From contig NZ_JACHBL010000001.1 of the NCBI RefSeq assembly GCF_014200305.1, positions 1,736,001 through 1,800,000 on the forward strand: 64,000 nucleotides of DNA. The letters are read 5' to 3'. Made by a program: the position numbers and the translations under genes. Shown piece after piece: positions 19,953 to 64,000 of this stretch; the stretch's first letter is position 1, and every line of letters begins with the position of its first letter. Below the pieces are notes generated by a model. It was not told the DNA's origin and made no database searches. It saw only the letters and a list, made by a program, of their open reading frames with translations. The DNA comes from Neomicrococcus lactis. Its GTDB lineage: Bacteria; Actinomycetota; Actinomycetes; Actinomycetales; Micrococcaceae.

Positions 19953-20693
19953 ATGACCACTTCCCGCTTTTCTCCGGCTGACCTCCCTCGGCTTCAGCAC
20001 CCTGACGGCTCGCCTATTAAGGCGCTGGTAGTGGATGACGAACCCACGCTCGCAGAGCTGGTCACGATGGGCCTGCGCATGCTGCACTGGGAAGTTTTGA
20101 CGGCGCATGACGGCCCGAAGGCCGTTCAAATAGCGCGCGCCGAAATGCCTGACGTCCTGATCCTGGACTGGATGCTTCCCGGCTACGACGGCCCCGAGGT
20201 CCTCGAAAAGATCCGCCTCTTCTTGCCGGACGTTCCGGTCATGTTCTTGACGGCGAAGGACACTGTGGATGACCGCATCGAGGGTCTCGCGAAGGGCGGC
20301 GACGACTACGTCACGAAGCCGTTCAGCCTCGAGGAAGTCCTGATTCGTTTGCACCGTTTGGTGTCGCGCAGTGGCGCGGCGACCGCGGATTCCGCCGAAA
20401 TGGTGGTGGGCGACCTGGTCATGAACACGGATTCGCGCGAAGTCCGCCGCAACGGCGAGGAAATTACCTTGACGGCAACGGAGTTCGATTTGTTGCGCTA
20501 TCTCATGGAGAACCCGCGGCGCGTACTGTCCAAGACGCAGATTCTCAATGCTGTGTGGAACTACGATTTCGGCGGCCAGGCCAACATCGTGGAGCTTTAT
20601 ATTTCCTACCTGCGCAAGAAGATCGATGCCGGGCATGAGGCCATGATTCACACCGTGCGCGGCGCCGGTTACGTCCTCAAGCCGGCCTCCTAG
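19953..20693 (+). CDS. OmpR-family response regulator
   Basis: 246 residues from ATG 19953 after AAAGGGTGATGAC. Receiver domain residues 22-140 with Asp28/Asp29, phospho-acceptor Asp72 (LILDWMLPG), Thr100 and Lys122 (VTKPFS). The C-terminal winged helix covers about 150-245 (LTATEFDLLRYLMENPRRVLSK, YISYLRKKID, VRGAGYVLK). The sensor kinase starts 18 bases downstream, so they are an operon and cognate pair. The stimulus cannot be read from the sequence. Confidence 0.93.
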   Translation: MTTSRFSPADLPRLQHPDGSPIKALVVDDEPTLAELVTMGLRMLHWEVLTAHDGPKAVQIARAEMPDVLILDWMLPGYDGPEVLEKIRLFLPDVPVMFLTAKDTVDDRIEGLAKGGDDYVTKPFSLEEVLIRLHRLVSRSGAATADSAEMVVGDLVMNTDSREVRRNGEEITLTATEFDLLRYLMENPRRVLSKTQILNAVWNYDFGGQANIVELYISYLRKKIDAGHEAMIHTVRGAGYVLKPAS

Positions 20694-20710
20694 GCGCCGG
20701 GGCTCGATCT

Positions 20711-22192
20711 GTGAAACGCGCCGCTCTGCGGACCCGCTTGGTTGCGGCTCTGCTCATTATGCTGACGTTGATTTGTTTGGTGATTGGCTTCTTTACACAC
20801 ACTATTTTGCGTACGACGACGCTGGGTCAGTTAGATGCCGAGCTTCAAGATGCCACCAATCGCGCAGTCAATTTCCGCGACGGTTCCGACCGAATTCGTA
20901 CGGACGATGACGATCCGCTTTACGCGCCTGGTCAGGCCTCCGGAACGCTGACGGTTCGCGTGTCTAGTGGTCTTGTTGCTTCTTCGGGTGTCTTGGATTC
21001 AACGACCGGCGAACGAGTGAGCCTCACCGCGGACGATCTCGAAGAACTCACGAAGGAAGCCGACACTGCTAGCCCTCAAGACGCCGAATTGTCTGTTGGA
21101 GAATACCGAGTGCTGGCCAAAGAGGACCACCACGGCGGGTTCATCATTGTGGGTCTTCCCACCGCTTCGGCCAAGCAGACACTGCGAACGTTCGATAGGT
21201 CGATCATCATTGTGGCGACGTCCGGCATTCTGGTGACTGGCGTGATTGGTTGGCTCATCATTCGCCGCTCGTTGCGGCCTCTTGAACGCGTCTCGAGCGT
21301 TGCCACGAGTGTGGCCGATTCCGTTTCTGACCTGTCTTCCGAGAAGGAGCATGCGCCCATCACGCAGCGCGTAGATGCCCGCGACGCCCAGCCTGGTACC
21401 GAGGTTGGCAATGTGGGCTCAGCTCTCAACAACCTCTTGGACAACGTTGATCAGGCACTGACCGTGCGTCAACGTTCTGAACAGCAAATGCGAAACTTCG
21501 CCGCGGACGCCTCCCACGAATTGCGCACTCCACTCGCCGCAGTGCGCGGCTACTCCGAGCTCATTCGGGCCACCGAGCACTTGAGTGAAGACGGCGAGAA
21601 ATCGATCCAGCGCGTGTTGGATCAGTCGGACCGGATGAGCGCCTTGGTGGAGAACTTGCTGCTCTTGGCGCGTCTCGATCAAGGCCAGAAGCCCAAGGAA
21701 GAGCCGGTTGACTTGAGCATTCTCGTAGCTGAGAGCGTGCAAGATCAACGCATTGCATCCGCGGATCACCAATGGAAAATGCAGTTGCCGGAATCCAGCG
21801 TCACGGTGCGCGGCGACCGGCAGCAGCTGGCTCAGGTGCTTTCTAACCTCTTGTCCAACGCACGAAAGCACACGCCCGAAGGTTCAGAAGTCATTGCCTC
21901 TCTGCGCATAGCCACGGACCGTGCGCATGCCGAACTCAGCGTTCAGGACAACGGTCCCGGCATCACACCAGAGTTCTTGCCGTACATCTTCAAGCGCTTC
22001 GCGCGCGCCGACAAGGCTCGTTCGGGCACCGATGGCACCACTGGACTGGGCTTGCCGATCGTCAAGGCAATCGTCGAAGCACACGGTGGAACTATCGTTG
22101 CGGCTAGCCGCCCAGGGCATACGGAATTTGTGGTCCGGCTTCCCTTGGCGGTGCCTCCGCAACCGGACCGAGCGCCGTCGTACTCCGCATAG
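20711..22192 (+). CDS. Sensor histidine kinase
   Basis: 493 residues from GTG 20711. Two membrane helices (about 8-30 and 163-185) enclose a 130-residue extracytoplasmic sensor, followed by a HAMP region (RRSLRPLERVSSVATSVADS), the H box FAADASHELRTPLAAVRGYS with His269, N box LSNLLSNARKHTPEGS, and ATP-lid motifs DNGPGI and GTTGLGLPI. It autophosphorylates and passes phosphate to the regulator encoded just upstream. A GTACGACGACG motif copy codes for Arg-Thr-Thr-Thr near the first helix. Confidence 0.93.
   Translation: MKRAALRTRLVAALLIMLTLICLVIGFFTHTILRTTTLGQLDAELQDATNRAVNFRDGSDRIRTDDDDPLYAPGQASGTLTVRVSSGLVASSGVLDSTTGERVSLTADDLEELTKEADTASPQDAELSVGEYRVLAKEDHHGGFIIVGLPTASAKQTLRTFDRSIIIVATSGILVTGVIGWLIIRRSLRPLERVSSVATSVADSVSDLSSEKEHAPITQRVDARDAQPGTEVGNVGSALNNLLDNVDQALTVRQRSEQQMRNFAADASHELRTPLAAVRGYSELIRATEHLSEDGEKSIQRVLDQSDRMSALVENLLLLARLDQGQKPKEEPVDLSILVAESVQDQRIASADHQWKMQLPESSVTVRGDRQQLAQVLSNLLSNARKHTPEGSEVIASLRIATDRAHAELSVQDNGPGITPEFLPYIFKRFARADKARSGTDGTTGLGLPIVKAIVEAHGGTIVAASRPGHTEFVVRLPLAVPPQPDRAPSYSA
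20811..20821 (+). repeat. Dispersed GTACGACGACG motif, copy in kinase gene
   Basis: Exact 11-mer; read in the frame CGT-ACG-ACG-ACG, different from the frames used at other copies. Confidence 0.5.
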
Positions 22193-57827: not shown

Positions 57828-59081
57828 TTGACTTCCGTTCCGCTCCCCTCCACTCCGGCGAACGCCGACTCCCACCCACGTTCACGTGCAGCCTGGGTGG
57901 TTGTGGTGTTCACGGGTGTGGTGGCGGCGATGCACATTTGGAAGCTGCCTGCCGCGCTCCCCATCATTCAGCAGCAGTTGGGCATCTCGTTGGTGGATGC
58001 CGGCCTCCTCTTGGGGACGGTCCAGATGTCCGGCATGCTCGGCGGCCTCCTAGTCTCCTTGTTTGCCGAGATGATCGGGCTACGCTGCAGCGTACTCATC
58101 GGCTTGTTGCTGCTCATAGTTGGCAGCATGCTCAGCATTTTTGCCCCCAACTACGTGTGGCTCCTCGTGGCGCGCTTCGTTGAAGGCGCCGGCTTCTTGG
58201 CGGCTACCATCGTGGCACCCGCTTTGATTCGTCGCGTCTCGCCGCTCGGGGCTATCAACACAGCTATTGGCTTCTGGGCCAGTTTTCAGGGTCAAGCCAC
58301 GTTCTTGGCACTTGTCGGAAGCACCATCGCCCTCCAGTTCATGCCATGGCAAGGCTGGTACTGGATCATGCTCGCCATCACGCTGGTCCCGATCGTCTTG
58401 GTACTCAAGGTTGTCCCGCGGGACCCGAGCGCTGAGCGGGAAGCGAGCGGCGTCGTCGTACCGGCGGTGAAAAAAATTGGGGTTACCGCGCGCTCGTGGA
58501 AACCGTGGATCGCGGGTCTGGTGTTCATGTGTTACACCGTGCAATGGATTGCCATTATTGGTTTTTTGCCCACCATTTATCAGCAAGTCGGCATCTCGGG
58601 ATGGCTTTCCGGTGTCCTGACGGCGGTGGCTGGTGGCGCGAATGCGGTGGGAGCCGTCATCTCCGGCGGGCTCTTTCAGCGCGGCTTTTCCGTCCTGCAA
58701 CTCGTGATTCCCACGTTTGTGGTCATGGGGCTCATGGCCTTTCTGACGTTCGCCGTTTCCTGGACCAGCGTTCCCGGCGGCTTCTTCTGGCAGTTCTTGT
58801 GCGTGGTGCTTTTCTCAGCGATGGGTTCGCTCATCCCGGCGTCCCTGACGCGCTTGTCCGTGGAACTGACGCCACCGGACGGATCGCCTCCGGCCGTCAT
58901 GGGACTCATGCAGCAGATCTATACCGTGGGATCCGTGTTTGGGCCTGCGATCGCAGCCTGGCTGGTGGTGACGACGGGCGGCTGGAACTCCACGTGGTGG
59001 ATGAACGCCTTCTTTAGCGCGCTGGGAATCATACTGGCGCTGTTCCTGAGCGCCAAGCGCCTACAGCTGGATCTTCGCTAA
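57828..59081 (+). CDS. MFS transporter, CynX/NimT-like
   Basis: 417 residues from TTG 57828, with AGGA close upstream. Twelve membrane helices; PIIQQQLGISLVDAGLLLG and SMGSLIPASLTRLSVELTPP fit the major facilitator branch of cyanate/nitroimidazole-type transporters. Substrate unknown. A GTG or internal ATG start cannot be excluded. A motif copy (58445-58461) codes for Ser-Gly-Val-Val-Val in the central loop. Confidence 0.82.
   Translation: MTSVPLPSTPANADSHPRSRAAWVVVVFTGVVAAMHIWKLPAALPIIQQQLGISLVDAGLLLGTVQMSGMLGGLLVSLFAEMIGLRCSVLIGLLLLIVGSMLSIFAPNYVWLLVARFVEGAGFLAATIVAPALIRRVSPLGAINTAIGFWASFQGQATFLALVGSTIALQFMPWQGWYWIMLAITLVPIVLVLKVVPRDPSAEREASGVVVPAVKKIGVTARSWKPWIAGLVFMCYTVQWIAIIGFLPTIYQQVGISGWLSGVLTAVAGGANAVGAVISGGLFQRGFSVLQLVIPTFVVMGLMAFLTFAVSWTSVPGGFFWQFLCVVLFSAMGSLIPASLTRLSVELTPPDGSPPAVMGLMQQIYTVGSVFGPAIAAWLVVTTGGWNSTWWMNAFFSALGIILALFLSAKRLQLDLR
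58445..58461 (-). repeat. Dispersed 17-mer motif, reverse copy
   Basis: Exact reverse complement of GTACGACGACGCCGCTC. Confidence 0.6.
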
Positions 59082-59263: not shown

Positions 59264-60784
59264 ATGGAACCGAGCTTAGGAACTGACGCTGCTTACTCGA
59301 CGGCCGCACCGGAAGTCGAGAAACGTCCGCTACGCAATATGTCGGAAGTGCGGCACTTTTTCCGCACGAACTCCACGCCGATCTTCTTCGTAGGTGCTAC
59401 GCCGTTCAACCTGCTGGGCCTTGACCGCTGGGTGCGTAACTTCTCCTACATTTGCTACTACGACGCTTGGGATGGCGCTCACCCGCGCATGTTCATGCCC
59501 AAGCGCAAGCCGTTTGAAGAGTTCGAGTCCGGCGAGGCCATCAACAACTGGCTCCTCAAGTCCCCCGAAGTACGTCAGTACATTCGCCGCAACACGCCTC
59601 GTGGCGAGCGTCCAAAGATTGCTTTGGTGTTCTTCAACGAGCAGACCGAGCAGATCTGTAGGGACCTCGGCTACGACCTGATCCTGCCTGCCGCTTCGCT
59701 GCGCGAGCACTTGGACTCCAAGATCGTCACCACGAAGCTTGGCAACCAGGCCGGTGCACCGTCGGTTCCAAACATCCTCACGAAGCTCGCGAGCTACAAG
59801 ACGCTCATGAGCCGTGCTGAGAAGGCCGGACTGGGCAAGGAACTTGTGGTCCAGACGCCATATGGCGACTCCGGCAAGACCACGTTCTTCATCTCGTCCG
59901 AAGAGGACTGGAAGAAGCACGAGAAGGAAATCGTCGGCCAGGACATCAAGGTCATGAAGCGCATCAACAACCGTCCGGTTGCTGTGGAAGCTGTCTTGAC
60001 CTCTTCCGGCACTGTGGTGGGTCCGTTCATGACGGAACTTGCCGGTTACCCAGAGCTCACGCCGTACCGCGGCGGCTGGTGTGGCAACGAGATGTTCCCC
60101 ACTGTTCTTGAGGGTGAGCAGCGTCGCAAGGCCTCCGAGCTGGTTCGCCGCTTGGGCGACCGTCTCGGCAAGGAAGGCTACCGCGGCTTCTTCGAGGTGG
60201 ACTTGCTCATCGATACGGACTCGGACGAGGTCTACCTCGGCGAGCTAAACCCGCGTATTTCCGGCGCTTCCGCCATTACCAACGTGACCGCCGGCGCTTA
60301 CGCCGACGTCCCGTTGTTCTTGTTCCACCTCTTGGAATTCCTCGATGTTGAGATCGATTTGGACGTCGACGAGATCAACGAGCGCTGGGAACATTTGGCT
60401 TCTGCAGACCTCTGGAGCCAGATGATCATCAAGGAAACTGACCCGATTGTTGAACAGCTTCTCGCCGCGCCGCGTACTGGCCAGTACTATTTCGACGATA
60501 ATGGAGTCCTGGTGTTCCGACGCGCTGCGTTGGACTGGCACCAGCTACAAAACGAAAACGAAGCGTTCTTCCTCCGCGTGTACGGTCCAGGTGACTACCG
60601 CTGGAAGGGCGCGGACTTGGGAATCCTCGTGACCAAGGGCCGTCTGCAAGTGACGGGCAAGAACGGGAAAACGGCACTGACCATTCGTGCTCAGGACTTC
60701 ATCTCTGCGATGCGGTCTGAGTTCGCCGGCGTGCCATTGGGGATTCCTGAGAACCCAAAAGAAATGACCTCGGAGATAGTGTGA
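59264..60784 (+). CDS. ATP-grasp ligase of unknown product
   Basis: 506 residues from ATG 59264 after TAGGAG. N-terminal domain 30-170; the ATP-grasp domain has a phosphate loop QTPYGDSGKTTFF, the lysine strand DIKVMKRINNRPVAVEA and the metal-binding LGELNPRISGASA. A C-terminal domain of about 150 residues follows (FDDNGVLVFRRAALDWHQLQ). Such enzymes join a carboxylate to an amine or thiol via acyl phosphate. It is not close in wording to biotin carboxylase, D-Ala ligase or cyanophycin synthetase. Its stop overlaps the start of the hydrolase gene, so the pair is made together. Confidence 0.75.
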   Translation: MEPSLGTDAAYSTAAPEVEKRPLRNMSEVRHFFRTNSTPIFFVGATPFNLLGLDRWVRNFSYICYYDAWDGAHPRMFMPKRKPFEEFESGEAINNWLLKSPEVRQYIRRNTPRGERPKIALVFFNEQTEQICRDLGYDLILPAASLREHLDSKIVTTKLGNQAGAPSVPNILTKLASYKTLMSRAEKAGLGKELVVQTPYGDSGKTTFFISSEEDWKKHEKEIVGQDIKVMKRINNRPVAVEAVLTSSGTVVGPFMTELAGYPELTPYRGGWCGNEMFPTVLEGEQRRKASELVRRLGDRLGKEGYRGFFEVDLLIDTDSDEVYLGELNPRISGASAITNVTAGAYADVPLFLFHLLEFLDVEIDLDVDEINERWEHLASADLWSQMIIKETDPIVEQLLAAPRTGQYYFDDNGVLVFRRAALDWHQLQNENEAFFLRVYGPGDYRWKGADLGILVTKGRLQVTGKNGKTALTIRAQDFISAMRSEFAGVPLGIPENPKEMTSEIV

Positions 60785-62313
60785 ATCAACTGCCAGTAGT
60801 GCCTAGTGCGTCGTCGTCAAAGTTCGGCATGGTCCCGAACTTGCAGCACAACGGCATCCCTCAAGGTATGGACCTTGAGAACTGGCAGCAAGATCCATAC
60901 CTGCACTGGACGTTCAGCCACGTCGCGGACTTCTTGCCTACGGCCAAGATTTCCCGCGGCGATGGCCCCGTCGCAGAGCTCCCCGAGAACTTCACTGACT
61001 TCACGTCCGTCGTCGTAGACTCCCCCGAGTACGGTGCGCCGACGAGCGTTGGCCAGATCATGGATGACACGTTCACCGATGGTTGGGCCGTCATGGTCGA
61101 TGGCGAATTGCTCACGGAAAACTACTTCGGGAAAGCGGACGCCAACATGTCCCACATCCTGATGTCCGTGTCCAAGTCGCTCGTCGGCGTGGTGGTGGGC
61201 GCTCTCGTCAACCAGGGCAAGCTTGATCTGTCCAAGACCATTGAGCATTACATTCCTGAGCTCAAGGGTTGCGGTTACGAGGGTGCGACCATTCGCCACA
61301 TCCTCGACATGCGCTCTGGCATCCAGTTCTCAGAAGAGTACTTGGATCCTCAGGCCGAGGTACGTCTCCTCGAGCAGGTCATTGGCTGGGCACCTCGCCG
61401 CGACCACTCCCTGCCGAAGACGATGTACGGCTTCCTCGCGAGCCTCAAGAAGGACGGCGAGCACGGTGGTCCGTTCCGGTACCGCTCGTGTGAAACCGAC
61501 GCCTTGGGCTGGCTCTGTGAGGTGGTCTCCGGCAAGAAGATGCCACAGCTGATGTCTGAGCTTCTTTGGAGCCGCATTGGCGCCGAGAACGATGCCACTA
61601 TTGGCATCGACAAAGAAGGCACCGGCATGTTCGATGGCGGCATCAACGCTTCTTTGCGTGACATGATCCGATTCGGCTCGCTGTTCCTTGAGCACGGTAA
61701 GTCGTTGACGGGCGAGCAGGTTGTGTCCGCGGGCTGGGTGGCTGACACCTTCGCCGGCGGCTCCACCTCCCGCAAGTCTTTCAAGCAGAGCCCGGATGAC
61801 AACCGCATGCCGGGCGGCATGTACCGCAATCAGTGCTGGTTCCCTTACGAGGGCAACGAAGTCATGTTGTGCTTGGGCATCCACGGCCAGATGATCTACA
61901 TCAACCGTCGCGCGAACATGGTGGCAGCTAAGCTTTCGAGCTGGCCGCTCCCCCAGAACGCGCGCATGTTGTTCCCGACCATCCAGGCCTTCGATGCCAT
62001 CGCAGAAGCTGTGGGCGACTCCGATTCCATTCCGGAGCTTCCACTGGACTTCGCACCGCTGGACCAGTACACCACCAGCATGCCGGTCATCGTTCCTGAT
62101 GCCCAGGTCCCAGCAACACCAGTCACGCCGGTCGCTCCTGTCGTTCCCGTAACGCCAGCTGCTCCCGTAACTCCAGCAGTCCCCGCGGCTCCTCAGATCC
62201 CCGCCGAGACGATCGCCTCTCAGGGCACCGTCGTAGCGGTGGACCCGGATTCCGGGGCAACCACGGTTGATTGGGGCGAAGGTCCGACGACGTACGGTGG
62301 CGCTACACAGTAA
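60781..62313 (+). CDS. NylB/beta-lactamase-type serine hydrolase
   Basis: 510 residues from GTG 60781, overlapping the previous stop. Penicillin-binding/beta-lactamase fold: nucleophile motif Ser129-Val-Ser-Lys132 (LMSVSKSL), Tyr234 in FRYRSCETDALGW as in 6-aminohexanoate-dimer hydrolase, and GIHGQMIYINR as the third element. NylB-type enzymes split linear amides; others are esterases. No signal peptide, so it should be cytoplasmic like its ligase partner. The last 80 residues are rich in Pro, Val and Thr (TPVTPVAPVVPVTPAAPVTP), an unusual tail for an intracellular enzyme. Confidence 0.82.
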   Translation: MNQLPVVPSASSSKFGMVPNLQHNGIPQGMDLENWQQDPYLHWTFSHVADFLPTAKISRGDGPVAELPENFTDFTSVVVDSPEYGAPTSVGQIMDDTFTDGWAVMVDGELLTENYFGKADANMSHILMSVSKSLVGVVVGALVNQGKLDLSKTIEHYIPELKGCGYEGATIRHILDMRSGIQFSEEYLDPQAEVRLLEQVIGWAPRRDHSLPKTMYGFLASLKKDGEHGGPFRYRSCETDALGWLCEVVSGKKMPQLMSELLWSRIGAENDATIGIDKEGTGMFDGGINASLRDMIRFGSLFLEHGKSLTGEQVVSAGWVADTFAGGSTSRKSFKQSPDDNRMPGGMYRNQCWFPYEGNEVMLCLGIHGQMIYINRRANMVAAKLSSWPLPQNARMLFPTIQAFDAIAEAVGDSDSIPELPLDFAPLDQYTTSMPVIVPDAQVPATPVTPVAPVVPVTPAAPVTPAVPAAPQIPAETIASQGTVVAVDPDSGATTVDWGEGPTTYGGATQ

Positions 62314-62323
62314 CGGCACCGCA

Positions 62324-62361
62324 CGGTGGGGTTACCTCAGCGACGCTGGGTAACCCCACCG
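62324..62361. terminator. Bidirectional hairpin after the ligase-hydrolase operon
   Basis: CGGTGGGGTTACC (62324-62336) pairs perfectly with GGTAACCCCACCG (62349-62361). It lies between convergent genes; no long T-run is present on either strand. Confidence 0.65.
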
Positions 62362-62402: not shown

Positions 62403-64000
62403 TCACCAACGCTGCGGTCGAGGAAGCACCGAGTGGCTGACATGTTCGGCGGCCGCTTGGAGCATCTCGATCGCGGCGTTGATGCGTTCTTCAGGGGTTT
62501 CGACACCAAACTCTGAGGCAACGCGCTGCAAATGCGGCGAAATAACGCTGGCCGGCGTTCCGGTCTTTAGACCCATCACGGGTCCGAGCGCCTGACGGCA
62601 CAACCGTTCCACCTCGGTCTTTCGCAGCTGGTTCGCGAGCCCCAGTTCCTGGACGCGCTCGGCCAATTGGGATTCAACGTCCCATGCAGAGTCTGGAATA
62701 TGCGAAACGGCGCTGCGATCGAGCGCTTCGGCGACGAGGCGATCGGTGGTGGTCTCCGCTGCGACCTCGACGTCGTCGGCCACAAATTCCTCAGACATGT
62801 CCACGGTGATGGGCTGGAAGCGCGCTTCGTCGTCTCCGCTGAGGACGTGGTCCACGGCTGCGAGCGCGGCCGCGCTCTGGATGCGCTGGCGCACCGTAGA
62901 GGTCACCTTGGCACGAGCTTCACCACGAACGCGCGTTGCTTCGTCGTTGAACGCTGGGTAGGTGCGGTGTCCCACGGAGAGCACGGCGTCGCCAGCAAGG
63001 TAGGCGAACAAGGCTTCTTTCATGGCCCGAACTTCGTTGTTGTCCTCTGCCGTCACCGCTGGCGCTTGGCTCTGGCCTACACGCAAGGACAGCAGGGCTG
63101 GCGCTACGTGAGACAAGTTGAATCCGCCGGCGCCTGCAGCGCCGAACGGGCGGATAGCTGCTTCAACGAGCGGGACAGCCGCGGACCACTGGCCGCGATC
63201 AAACCACTGAAGCTGTGCTGCGCGGCGCTCGGTCAGCCACTCGAGGAATCCGACCGGCACCCACTGCGGAGCCTTGGTGGAGCGGGCATTGAGCCCAAAA
63301 AAGCGCTGGAAGTCTGCGGACTCAACGCCCGAAGGAGTTCCCGCGTGCCAACCGAAGACCACCACGCGAGAAGGGGCCAGCGCCACCAGACCGGTGGTTC
63401 CGTAGCCATCTGGCGTGCGAGCCGTCAGTCCAAAGCGCGTGAACGTGAAGCGACGCTCATCAAACGGCACTTCCTGCTCAGCCTCAGTGATAGCCGCCTG
63501 AGCCCACGCGATGATGACCTGACGAACCATGTTCAGCACGCCTTCATCGGAAGAACTCACGAACGGCTGCAAACGCTTGACGTCCCATACCCGCACCAGT
63601 GCCGGACCTTCCGAAGGCTGCAAGAGGCGAGCTACGGCGTCGTAATTAAGAACCGAAGCGTCCCCTGCGGTCCCCAGGGGCGCGGCGCTCGTCAAGTGAG
63701 CGTAGACGCGGCGAATGTTCGCGATGCCCGCCTGGACGGCGGCCGCGGACGGGTCTTTCGCCGTGACGTAGGTGGCGAGGGTGCGGAAGTGGGATTCGAG
63801 GTTGGCATCGCTCGCGATGACATTCGGCGCAAGGAAAGCGTTCATGCTGGACTTCGCGACGGCGAGCGGGTCGCCTTCAGGCTGCTCTTCCGGGTGCGCT
63901 TGGTCGATGAGCGACTGGATGAACTCGACAGTCTGCTGATCGCTCGCGAACGGCACGGCGGCGGAGAGGAACTTGTCCTTCCACGGCTCGTGCGTGTCTA
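62403..64000 (-). CDS. Unknown protein (partial at right edge)
   Basis: Leftward frame open from the window edge (…DTHEPWKDKFLSAAVPFASDQQ) to a stop at 62403, over 530 residues. A GTG at 63956 could start it, but the frame continues in a natural way upstream, so the N-terminus is probably outside the window. The protein is alpha-helical and soluble with segments VAPALLSLRVGQSQAP, HVLSGDDEARFQPITVDMSEEF and ERVQELGLANQLRKTEVERLC. No known motif recognised. Confidence 0.65.
   Translation of the reverse strand, partial: DTHEPWKDKFLSAAVPFASDQQTVEFIQSLIDQAHPEEQPEGDPLAVAKSSMNAFLAPNVIASDANLESHFRTLATYVTAKDPSAAAVQAGIANIRRVYAHLTSAAPLGTAGDASVLNYDAVARLLQPSEGPALVRVWDVKRLQPFVSSSDEGVLNMVRQVIIAWAQAAITEAEQEVPFDERRFTFTRFGLTARTPDGYGTTGLVALAPSRVVVFGWHAGTPSGVESADFQRFFGLNARSTKAPQWVPVGFLEWLTERRAAQLQWFDRGQWSAAVPLVEAAIRPFGAAGAGGFNLSHVAPALLSLRVGQSQAPAVTAEDNNEVRAMKEALFAYLAGDAVLSVGHRTYPAFNDEATRVRGEARAKVTSTVRQRIQSAAALAAVDHVLSGDDEARFQPITVDMSEEFVADDVEVAAETTTDRLVAEALDRSAVSHIPDSAWDVESQLAERVQELGLANQLRKTEVERLCRQALGPVMGLKTGTPASVISPHLQRVASEFGVETPEERINAAIEMLQAAAEHVSHSVLPRPQRW

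Follow-up and report, generated by a model that had tools for sequence, protein, structure and literature searches.

A conserved gene pair for an ATP-grasp ligase and a NylB-like hydrolase in Neomicrococcus lactis, with a possible role in the conjugation and release of amines

The stretch of DNA considered here, called the window, comprises 64,000 nucleotides of the 2.70-Mb genome of Neomicrococcus lactis (contig NZ_JACHBL010000001.1, positions 1,736,001 to 1,800,000), and its subject of interest is a pair of genes encoding an adenosine triphosphate (ATP)-grasp ligase and a NylB-like serine hydrolase. A preliminary description of the window had pointed to two genes with a four-base overlap; both open reading frames (ORFs) are confirmed, bases 60781-60784 are shared between them, and the overlap is also kept in a genome of the same genus (G321). 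Between the window and G321, the ligase has a ratio of nonsynonymous to synonymous substitutions (dN/dS) of 0.034 and the hydrolase one of 0.070; together with the retained overlap, these low ratios indicate genes under purifying selection. The features of the pair, in window coordinates, are as follows.

59264-60784, + strand: ATP-grasp ligase gene, ATG start, 506 amino acids (aa), supported by the ORF and a match to NF005096/PRK06524
60242-60268, + strand: ligase motif E327-L-N329-P-R331-I-S-G-A335, from the alignment of 44 ligases
60781-60784, + strand: overlap of the ligase stop and the hydrolase GTG start, 4 bases, GTGA
60781-62313, + strand: NylB-like serine hydrolase gene, GTG start, 510 aa, Beta-lactamase/class C fold
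61165-61176, + strand: catalytic SxxK of the hydrolase, S129 and K132 (NylB S112 and K115), from the alignment of 30 hydrolases
61372-61374, + strand: hydrolase E198, aligned with NylB residue 181 (Glu in 28/30, Asp in 2/30)
61480-61482, + strand: catalytic Y234 of the hydrolase (NylB Y215), from the same alignment
61633-61635, + strand: hydrolase D285, aligned with NylB residue 266 (Asp in 30/30)
62071-62230, + strand: hydrolase tail rich in Pro/Val/Thr, differing within the genus

The ligase scores above the cut-off of NCBIfam family NF005096 (PRK06524, "biotin carboxylase"; 739.6 bits, cut-off 684), the Pfam scan returned ATP-grasp_3 and CPSase_L_D2 as sub-threshold matches alone, and the protein is of the ATP-grasp type. 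An AlphaFold model built on a 38-row alignment (mean predicted local distance difference test, pLDDT, 87.2; predicted template modelling score, pTM, 0.84) retrieved biotin carboxylase domains in Foldseek with expect (E) values down to 6.7e-17. In the VIA comparison, biotin carboxylase came closest among the matches listed (Z 23.6, root-mean-square deviation 4.1 over 385 residues), with PurK (22.8), PurD (22.6) and PylC (21.9) just behind, the fold search listing 50 matches and covering part of the ATP-grasp families. Residues 29-491 of the model align with all four of these structures at 10-16% identity and share their architecture; the "extra C-terminal domain" that had been assigned to the ligase falls inside this stretch. 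PylC is an amide ligase, and likeness to it within one architecture means that amide-forming chemistry would be allowed by the ligase architecture.

The active site separates the ligase from the enzyme after which its family is named. For Escherichia coli biotin carboxylase, we take Lys116, Lys159, Glu276, Glu288 and Asn290 to be the ATP and magnesium residues, Lys159 presumably as an ATP contact, and Gln294 and Glu296 to form the bicarbonate site. Across the 44 aligned ligases, K153, D313, E327, N329 and R331 are invariant, the first four standing at ATP/Mg places (D313 with Asp for Glu), and the Lys159 place (ligase residue 197, window 59852-59854) holds Gln in 42/44. At the places of Gln294, Val295 and Glu296 stand S/T/C, G and A, respectively, the A being replaced by I in one sequence and by L in another. 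To judge from these residues, the ligase would retain most of the ATP-grasp machinery and have lost the bicarbonate site, and the identification as a biotin carboxylase was rejected on this ground, despite an overall fold nearest, among the matches listed, to that of biotin carboxylases. That the ligase is a true biotin carboxylase after all, with the hydrolase as a chance neighbour, would agree with the NCBIfam equivalog name and with the nearest fold among the matches listed; set against this are the substitutions at both bicarbonate places in 44/44 sequences, the similar Z values of PurD, PurK and PylC (21.9-22.8 vs 23.6), and an adjacency and co-occurrence with an amidase that are far from chance, which together leave this explanation scarcely credible. 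No close relative of the ligase with a shown product turned up, in keeping with the earlier impression that it is unlike a known biosynthetic ligase. The PRK06524 family resembles instead an amide ligase with ties to amine metabolism, and its "biotin carboxylase" annotation is therefore probably misleading wherever the family occurs. Matches on Sinorhizobium plasmids (H25-H32) cover 42% of the ligase in 2-3 pieces, which suggests decayed copies of the gene.

The hydrolase matches Pfam Beta-lactamase (PF00144) with 115.9 bits against a gathering cut-off of 27, and its best solved relative is the 6-aminohexanoate-dimer hydrolase NylB (E 2.5e-71, residues 31-393). The catalytic set S129, K132 and Y234, common to NylB, is invariant in 30/30 aligned hydrolases, and the place of NylB Y170 is kept as well. 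Unlike NylB, the hydrolase adjoins a partner ligase, and the places of NylB C216, N219 and N266 read R/K, E and D. The place of residue 181, which we take to contact the amino end of the NylB substrate, is acidic throughout. The NylB structure cited in PMC13269358 carries changes at positions 112, 181 and 266; the same paper reports that the catalytic domains of depolymerases acting on polymers of gamma-aminobutyric acid (GABA) have predicted structures like those of NylB and other Beta-lactamase-type proteins, and that one such depolymerase leaves the 6-aminohexanoate dimer uncut, so that the substrate is not readable from the fold. No signal peptide was seen in the hydrolase by eye. The Pro/Val/Thr-rich tail noted in the preliminary description is present; its conservation does not hold, since the protein is 24 aa shorter in G321, with the difference in the tail, and the open frames of relatives, called with an ORF caller scored on third-position GC content (GC3), measure 395-440 aa in 32 of the 38 shown.

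These properties bear on one rival account, in which the pair acts on the acid end: the ligase would activate an omega-amino or omega-guanidino acid (GABA or 4-guanidinobutyrate) and couple another amine to it, and the hydrolase would free the same acid. NylB cleaves an omega-aminoacyl amide, the acidic 181 place and the Asp at 266 could accommodate a cationic acyl group, routes to 4-guanidinobutyrate or GABA are present at some loci, and the predicted likeness of the GABA-polymer depolymerases to NylB points the same way. The account is nonetheless unlikely: the most constant third partner of the pair, described below, should yield amines and not acids, and one GABA-polymer depolymerase is reported to fail on the NylB substrate.

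The pairing itself was followed in a scan of genome contigs that gave 142 stretches with a ligase relative, of which the best 80 were retained; plasmid and further genome loci were added, and L134, without a full ligase, was dropped, so that 100 full-ligase loci were mapped besides the window. These comprise 48 named actinobacterial loci and 52 others, mostly from Proteobacteria; the relatives are unevenly sampled, and 32 of the 52 belong to Halomonadaceae and hence are not independent. A NylB-like gene lies directly downstream of the ligase match, on the same strand and within 500 bp, in 40 of the 48 actinobacterial loci. Two of the remaining eight are cut off at a contig end and six are exceptions: no hydrolase lies within 8 kb of the ligase in L055, L057 and L062 (each of these genomes carries one, 63-64% identical, elsewhere), the hydrolase is upstream in L063 and L085, and in L070 a hydrolase and a C45 gene both flank the ligase on the opposite strand. 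Among the 52 other loci, the amidase place is taken by a C45 N-terminal nucleophile (Ntn) hydrolase in 48, by a NylB-like gene in two and by a C45 gene on the opposite strand in one, and is cut off in one. The C45 and NylB-like hydrolases are unrelated amidases; because an unrelated amidase fills the same place next to the same ligase family, an amidase activity appears to be needed beside the ligase. The adjacency is accordingly not restricted to one strain, and the preliminary proposal of a module of predicted amide-forming and amide-splitting enzyme types is upheld by the pairing across many genomes; no description of the pair was found in the searched open-licence literature, a partial library, which agrees with its being called an undescribed module.

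Some of these loci carry further features. On Rhizobium leguminosarum plasmid p3 (L037, 1-12523), a block of a decarboxylase of the ornithine/lysine/arginine (Orn/Lys/Arg, OKR) type, the ligase and a C45 gene adjoins nifHDKEN, and a NylB-like gene lies further along at 20210-21397. Another rhizobial ligase locus (L038, 1-2971) is near annotated genes for a Nif11-type precursor of a ribosomally synthesised and post-translationally modified peptide (RiPP) and for radical SAM enzymes. Published work on SMa0682 could not be tied to locus L040.

The third partner was recognised in a sample of 149 genomes of the window's family, with E cut-offs of <=1e-50 for the ligase, <=1e-40 for the hydrolase and <=1e-60 for the OKR decarboxylase. 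Ligase and hydrolase occur together in the same 23 genomes and are both absent from the other 126; the ligase is fragmented in G316 and interrupted by one internal stop in G420. On contig 3 of G316 (L196), an intact hydrolase stands next to the fragmented ligase, with the OKR gene further downstream. A long OKR-type decarboxylase occurs in 26/149 genomes, distributed as 21/23 with the ligase versus 5/126 without (Fisher p 8e-19) or, by genus, as 7/7 versus 2/25 (p 1e-5), both uncorrected for phylogeny; G346 and G398 carry the ligase without it. All five OKR proteins inspected have an S-T-H-K motif, which we take to be the pyridoxal phosphate-lysine motif. For linkage, the ligase surroundings of 20 of the 22 other ligase-bearing genomes were compared, some of them cut by contig ends, with 20 arbitrary control stretches of 17.5 kb from seven genomes at hand-picked positions: in 10/20 family loci an OKR gene follows the ligase, 1.3-5.2 kb downstream, and 0/20 controls contain one. 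The OKR-type decarboxylase is the third and most constant partner of the ligase-hydrolase pair.

Neighbouring genes were called by tblastn with marker proteins, a procedure that misses unlike enzymes, and five markers were counted: OKR decarboxylase, agmatinase, ketoarginine decarboxylase, copper amine oxidase and flavin amine oxidase. At least one occurs in 10/20 family loci, in 32/32 Halomonadaceae loci and in 0/20 controls; the family loci and the named actinobacterial loci share some genomes. Dehydrogenases like succinate-semialdehyde dehydrogenase (SSADH) and permeases occur in 3/20 controls each and class III aminotransferases in 1/20, and these genes weigh little for that reason. Besides OKR genes, some loci hold amine oxidases, agmatinase, ketoarginine decarboxylase, dehydrogenases and aminotransferases, which ties the pair to amine and arginine catabolic genes in some lineages. 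For instance, L061 combines a copper amine oxidase, an aldehyde-dehydrogenase-like gene, a permease and an agmatinase with ligase and hydrolase, and L149 combines the ligase and a divergent hydrolase with a copper amine oxidase, two aldehyde-dehydrogenase-like genes and a class III aminotransferase-like gene; both sets supply roles like those of the Puu pathway near the pair. In Halomonadaceae, a carbon-nitrogen hydrolase, the ligase, the C45 gene and the OKR gene follow the ectoine-degradation genes doeA and doeB (identified by hidden Markov model in L088; the doeB marker is found in 31/32 loci). L035 and L036 unite a racemase, a D-amino acid dehydrogenase, 5-guanidino-2-oxopentanoate decarboxylase, agmatinase and an aldehyde dehydrogenase with ligase and C45 gene.

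Amine-related genes also lie elsewhere in the genome of the window. Its OKR decarboxylase gene is unlinked to the pair, at 42-45 kb of contig 1, and an agmatinase adjoins a ketoarginine-decarboxylase-like enzyme (328.7 bits, below the cut-off of 500) about 180 kb from the pair. The surrounding cluster (L136, 5695-12626, contig 1 at about 1.61 Mb), with agmatinase, ketoarginine-decarboxylase-like, flavin adenine dinucleotide (FAD) dehydrogenase and sodium-symporter-like genes, possibly serves arginine or guanidinobutyrate breakdown. The genome further holds a PuuD-like C26 gene accompanied by two class III aminotransferases, and inspection by eye adds ABC transporter genes there; the PuuD-like protein matches gamma-glutamyl-GABA hydrolase with 76.5 bits, below the cut-off of 266. 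A second glutamine-synthetase-like gene is present as well, and with these two genes there, a replacement of the conventional Puu pathway by the pair in this genome was set aside as unsupported.

Amine supply, an ATP-dependent ligase, oxidation and an amidase together match the course of polyamine gamma-glutamylation, which argues that the ligase conjugates and the amidase releases. Our tentative preference, held at a little under an even chance, is that the two enzymes attach and release an amine within one pathway, which would serve amines that come from basic amino acids. At the expense of ATP, the ligase would join such an amine (e.g., putrescine, cadaverine, agmatine or 1,3-diaminopropane) to a carboxylic acid, which may be glutamate or an omega-amino acid; the conjugate would be converted to the aldehyde and then the acid by oxidation or transamination, with enzymes that differ between lineages; and the hydrolase, NylB-like here and of the C45 Ntn type elsewhere, would cut the amide to give an omega-amino acid and the carrier acid. 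The overall scheme would follow PuuA/PuuD logic with unrelated proteins. We infer that the product is an amide, which amines and acids enter it, in which direction the flux runs, and whether the conjugate is a catabolic intermediate or a store. An arginine-only function, raised by L035/L036 and by the agmatinase cluster of the window's genome, is kept only within the rivals; it is not preferred, since the block of Halomonadaceae is found amid ectoine genes and the OKR decarboxylase is the most constant partner.

The preliminary description had likened the pair to cyanophycin synthetase and cyanophycinase, which make and recycle a storage compound. The conserved pairing of a making and a splitting enzyme stands; storage is less favoured, since the recurring neighbours consume basic amino acids or amines and the domain types differ, and it is kept as a rival, since many loci show the pair only. 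In this rival, the amine-acid amide would be an end in itself, as a store, an osmolyte or a buffer of free polyamine from which the hydrolase frees the amine on demand, much as with glutathionylspermidine synthetase/amidase or Ebony/Tan. The OKR decarboxylase would supply the amine here too, halophiles are among the carriers, and numerous loci, e.g., in Brevibacterium and several Mycobacterium, have the pair and no other tested marker; the catabolic neighbours of other lineages (amine oxidases, dehydrogenases, agmatinase, aminotransferases) and a Pfam scan of the ligase without a Mur-ligase or GSP_synth domain make it improbable.

Several observations count against the preferred pathway of amine attachment and release. 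The pair stands alone in many loci, the window among them, and at least one of the five markers is found in only 15/48 actinobacterial and 6/20 non-Halomonadaceae other loci; a Puu-type oxidase or aminotransferase, aldehyde dehydrogenase and GABA-type aminotransferase lie near the pair in L061, L149 and Halomonadaceae, and not beside the pair of the window. The ketoarginine-decarboxylase/agmatinase route to GABA in L035/L036 needs no amide step, and the block among ectoine-degradation genes may handle a different amine. The genome of the window may own a conventional Puu route, given its PuuD-like C26 and second glutamine-synthetase-like genes, and the ATP site of the ligase may be unusual, given the Gln at the Lys159 place. 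Two metagenome bins with the ligase at a contig end (L064, L079) have no hydrolase at E 1e-20. Moreover, although the best tree of 44 ligases (L070 left out, four rows without a label, L125 counted as C45 despite its opposite strand) needs two changes of amidase type, a single change is not rejected by the approximately unbiased (AU) test (p 0.106), the second change depends on a small number of rows, including one with a long branch, and once the long-branch row L128 is removed, the well-supported branches force just one change. The claim that the tree proves at least two amidase swaps was dropped for these reasons; the odds given to the explanations were left as they were, because the pairing with either amidase stands.

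In a further rival, the pair would produce and remove a small specialised metabolite (an antibiotic or a signal with a basic-amine amide, for instance). Pathways of this type do include ATP-grasp ligases and class C-type hydrolases, and one rhizobial plasmid locus is near the RiPP-like cluster; the broad distribution, the low dN/dS and the ties to amine catabolism render this very unlikely. Held somewhat more loosely than the preferred pathway is its extension to an amine-conjugation cycle common to Actinobacteria, Halomonadaceae and rhizobia, in which OKR would make the amine, PRK06524 would conjugate it and either amidase would release it, as a separate invention of the PuuA/PuuD step. If the pathway is real, it would provide a natural role for one group of the NylB-like hydrolases, enzymes known chiefly from nylon waste, and the use of arginine and polyamines by some soil, marine and symbiotic bacteria would become testable.

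The pair is flanked by other features. Upstream, 182 bp 5' of the ligase, a gene that looks transporter-like by eye (57828-59081, + strand) also matches the same-genus genome at the DNA level; its product has no NCBIfam match at E 1e-15, and it may or may not belong to the ligase-hydrolase unit. Downstream, a gene convergent to the hydrolase (62403-63998, - strand, at least 517 aa) is likewise without an NCBIfam match at E 1e-15, and the gap between the two holds one further feature.

62324-62361, no strand assigned: strong GC-rich hairpin in the convergent gap between the hydrolase and 62403-63998 (62-base stretch, -39.2 kcal/mol, z -6.4)

The + strand of the hairpin has no T-run, and the hairpin is a possible transcript end.

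Besides NylB and the ATP-grasp enzymes of the biotin carboxylase architecture, four known systems come closest to the pair. Cyanophycin synthetase and cyanophycinase are likewise an ATP-dependent amide maker and a hydrolase; the pair differs in having no Mur-ligase domain and no S51 hydrolase (Pfam scan, E up to 1) and in its known neighbours, which are catabolic. Glutathionylspermidine synthetase/amidase (GspSA) combines, within a single gene, a ligase of the ATP-grasp type with an amidase whose substrate is a polyamine amide, whereas the pair consists of two genes in which the same scan gave neither GSP_synth nor CHAP. Insect Ebony and Tan, a beta-alanyl-amine synthase resembling nonribosomal peptide synthetases (NRPS) and a C45-family hydrolase, have the logic of making and splitting an amine conjugate in common with the pair, but Ebony is not of the ATP-grasp type. 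PuuA and PuuD, a glutamine-synthetase-type enzyme and a C26 peptidase, follow the same predicted logic, an ATP-dependent amide on the amine and then hydrolysis, and the oxidase or aminotransferase and dehydrogenase genes of that pathway are likewise found in some neighbourhoods of the pair. PMC8998196 describes GlnA2 and GlnA3 of Streptomyces as glutamine-synthetase-like enzymes of polyamine gamma-glutamylation. In place of the glutamine-synthetase-type and C26 enzymes of the Puu pathway, the pair has an ATP-grasp ligase and a Beta-lactamase-type or C45 amidase and, if the preferred pathway is correct, would represent an unrelated enzyme set for the same chemistry as this known amide-protected breakdown of amines.

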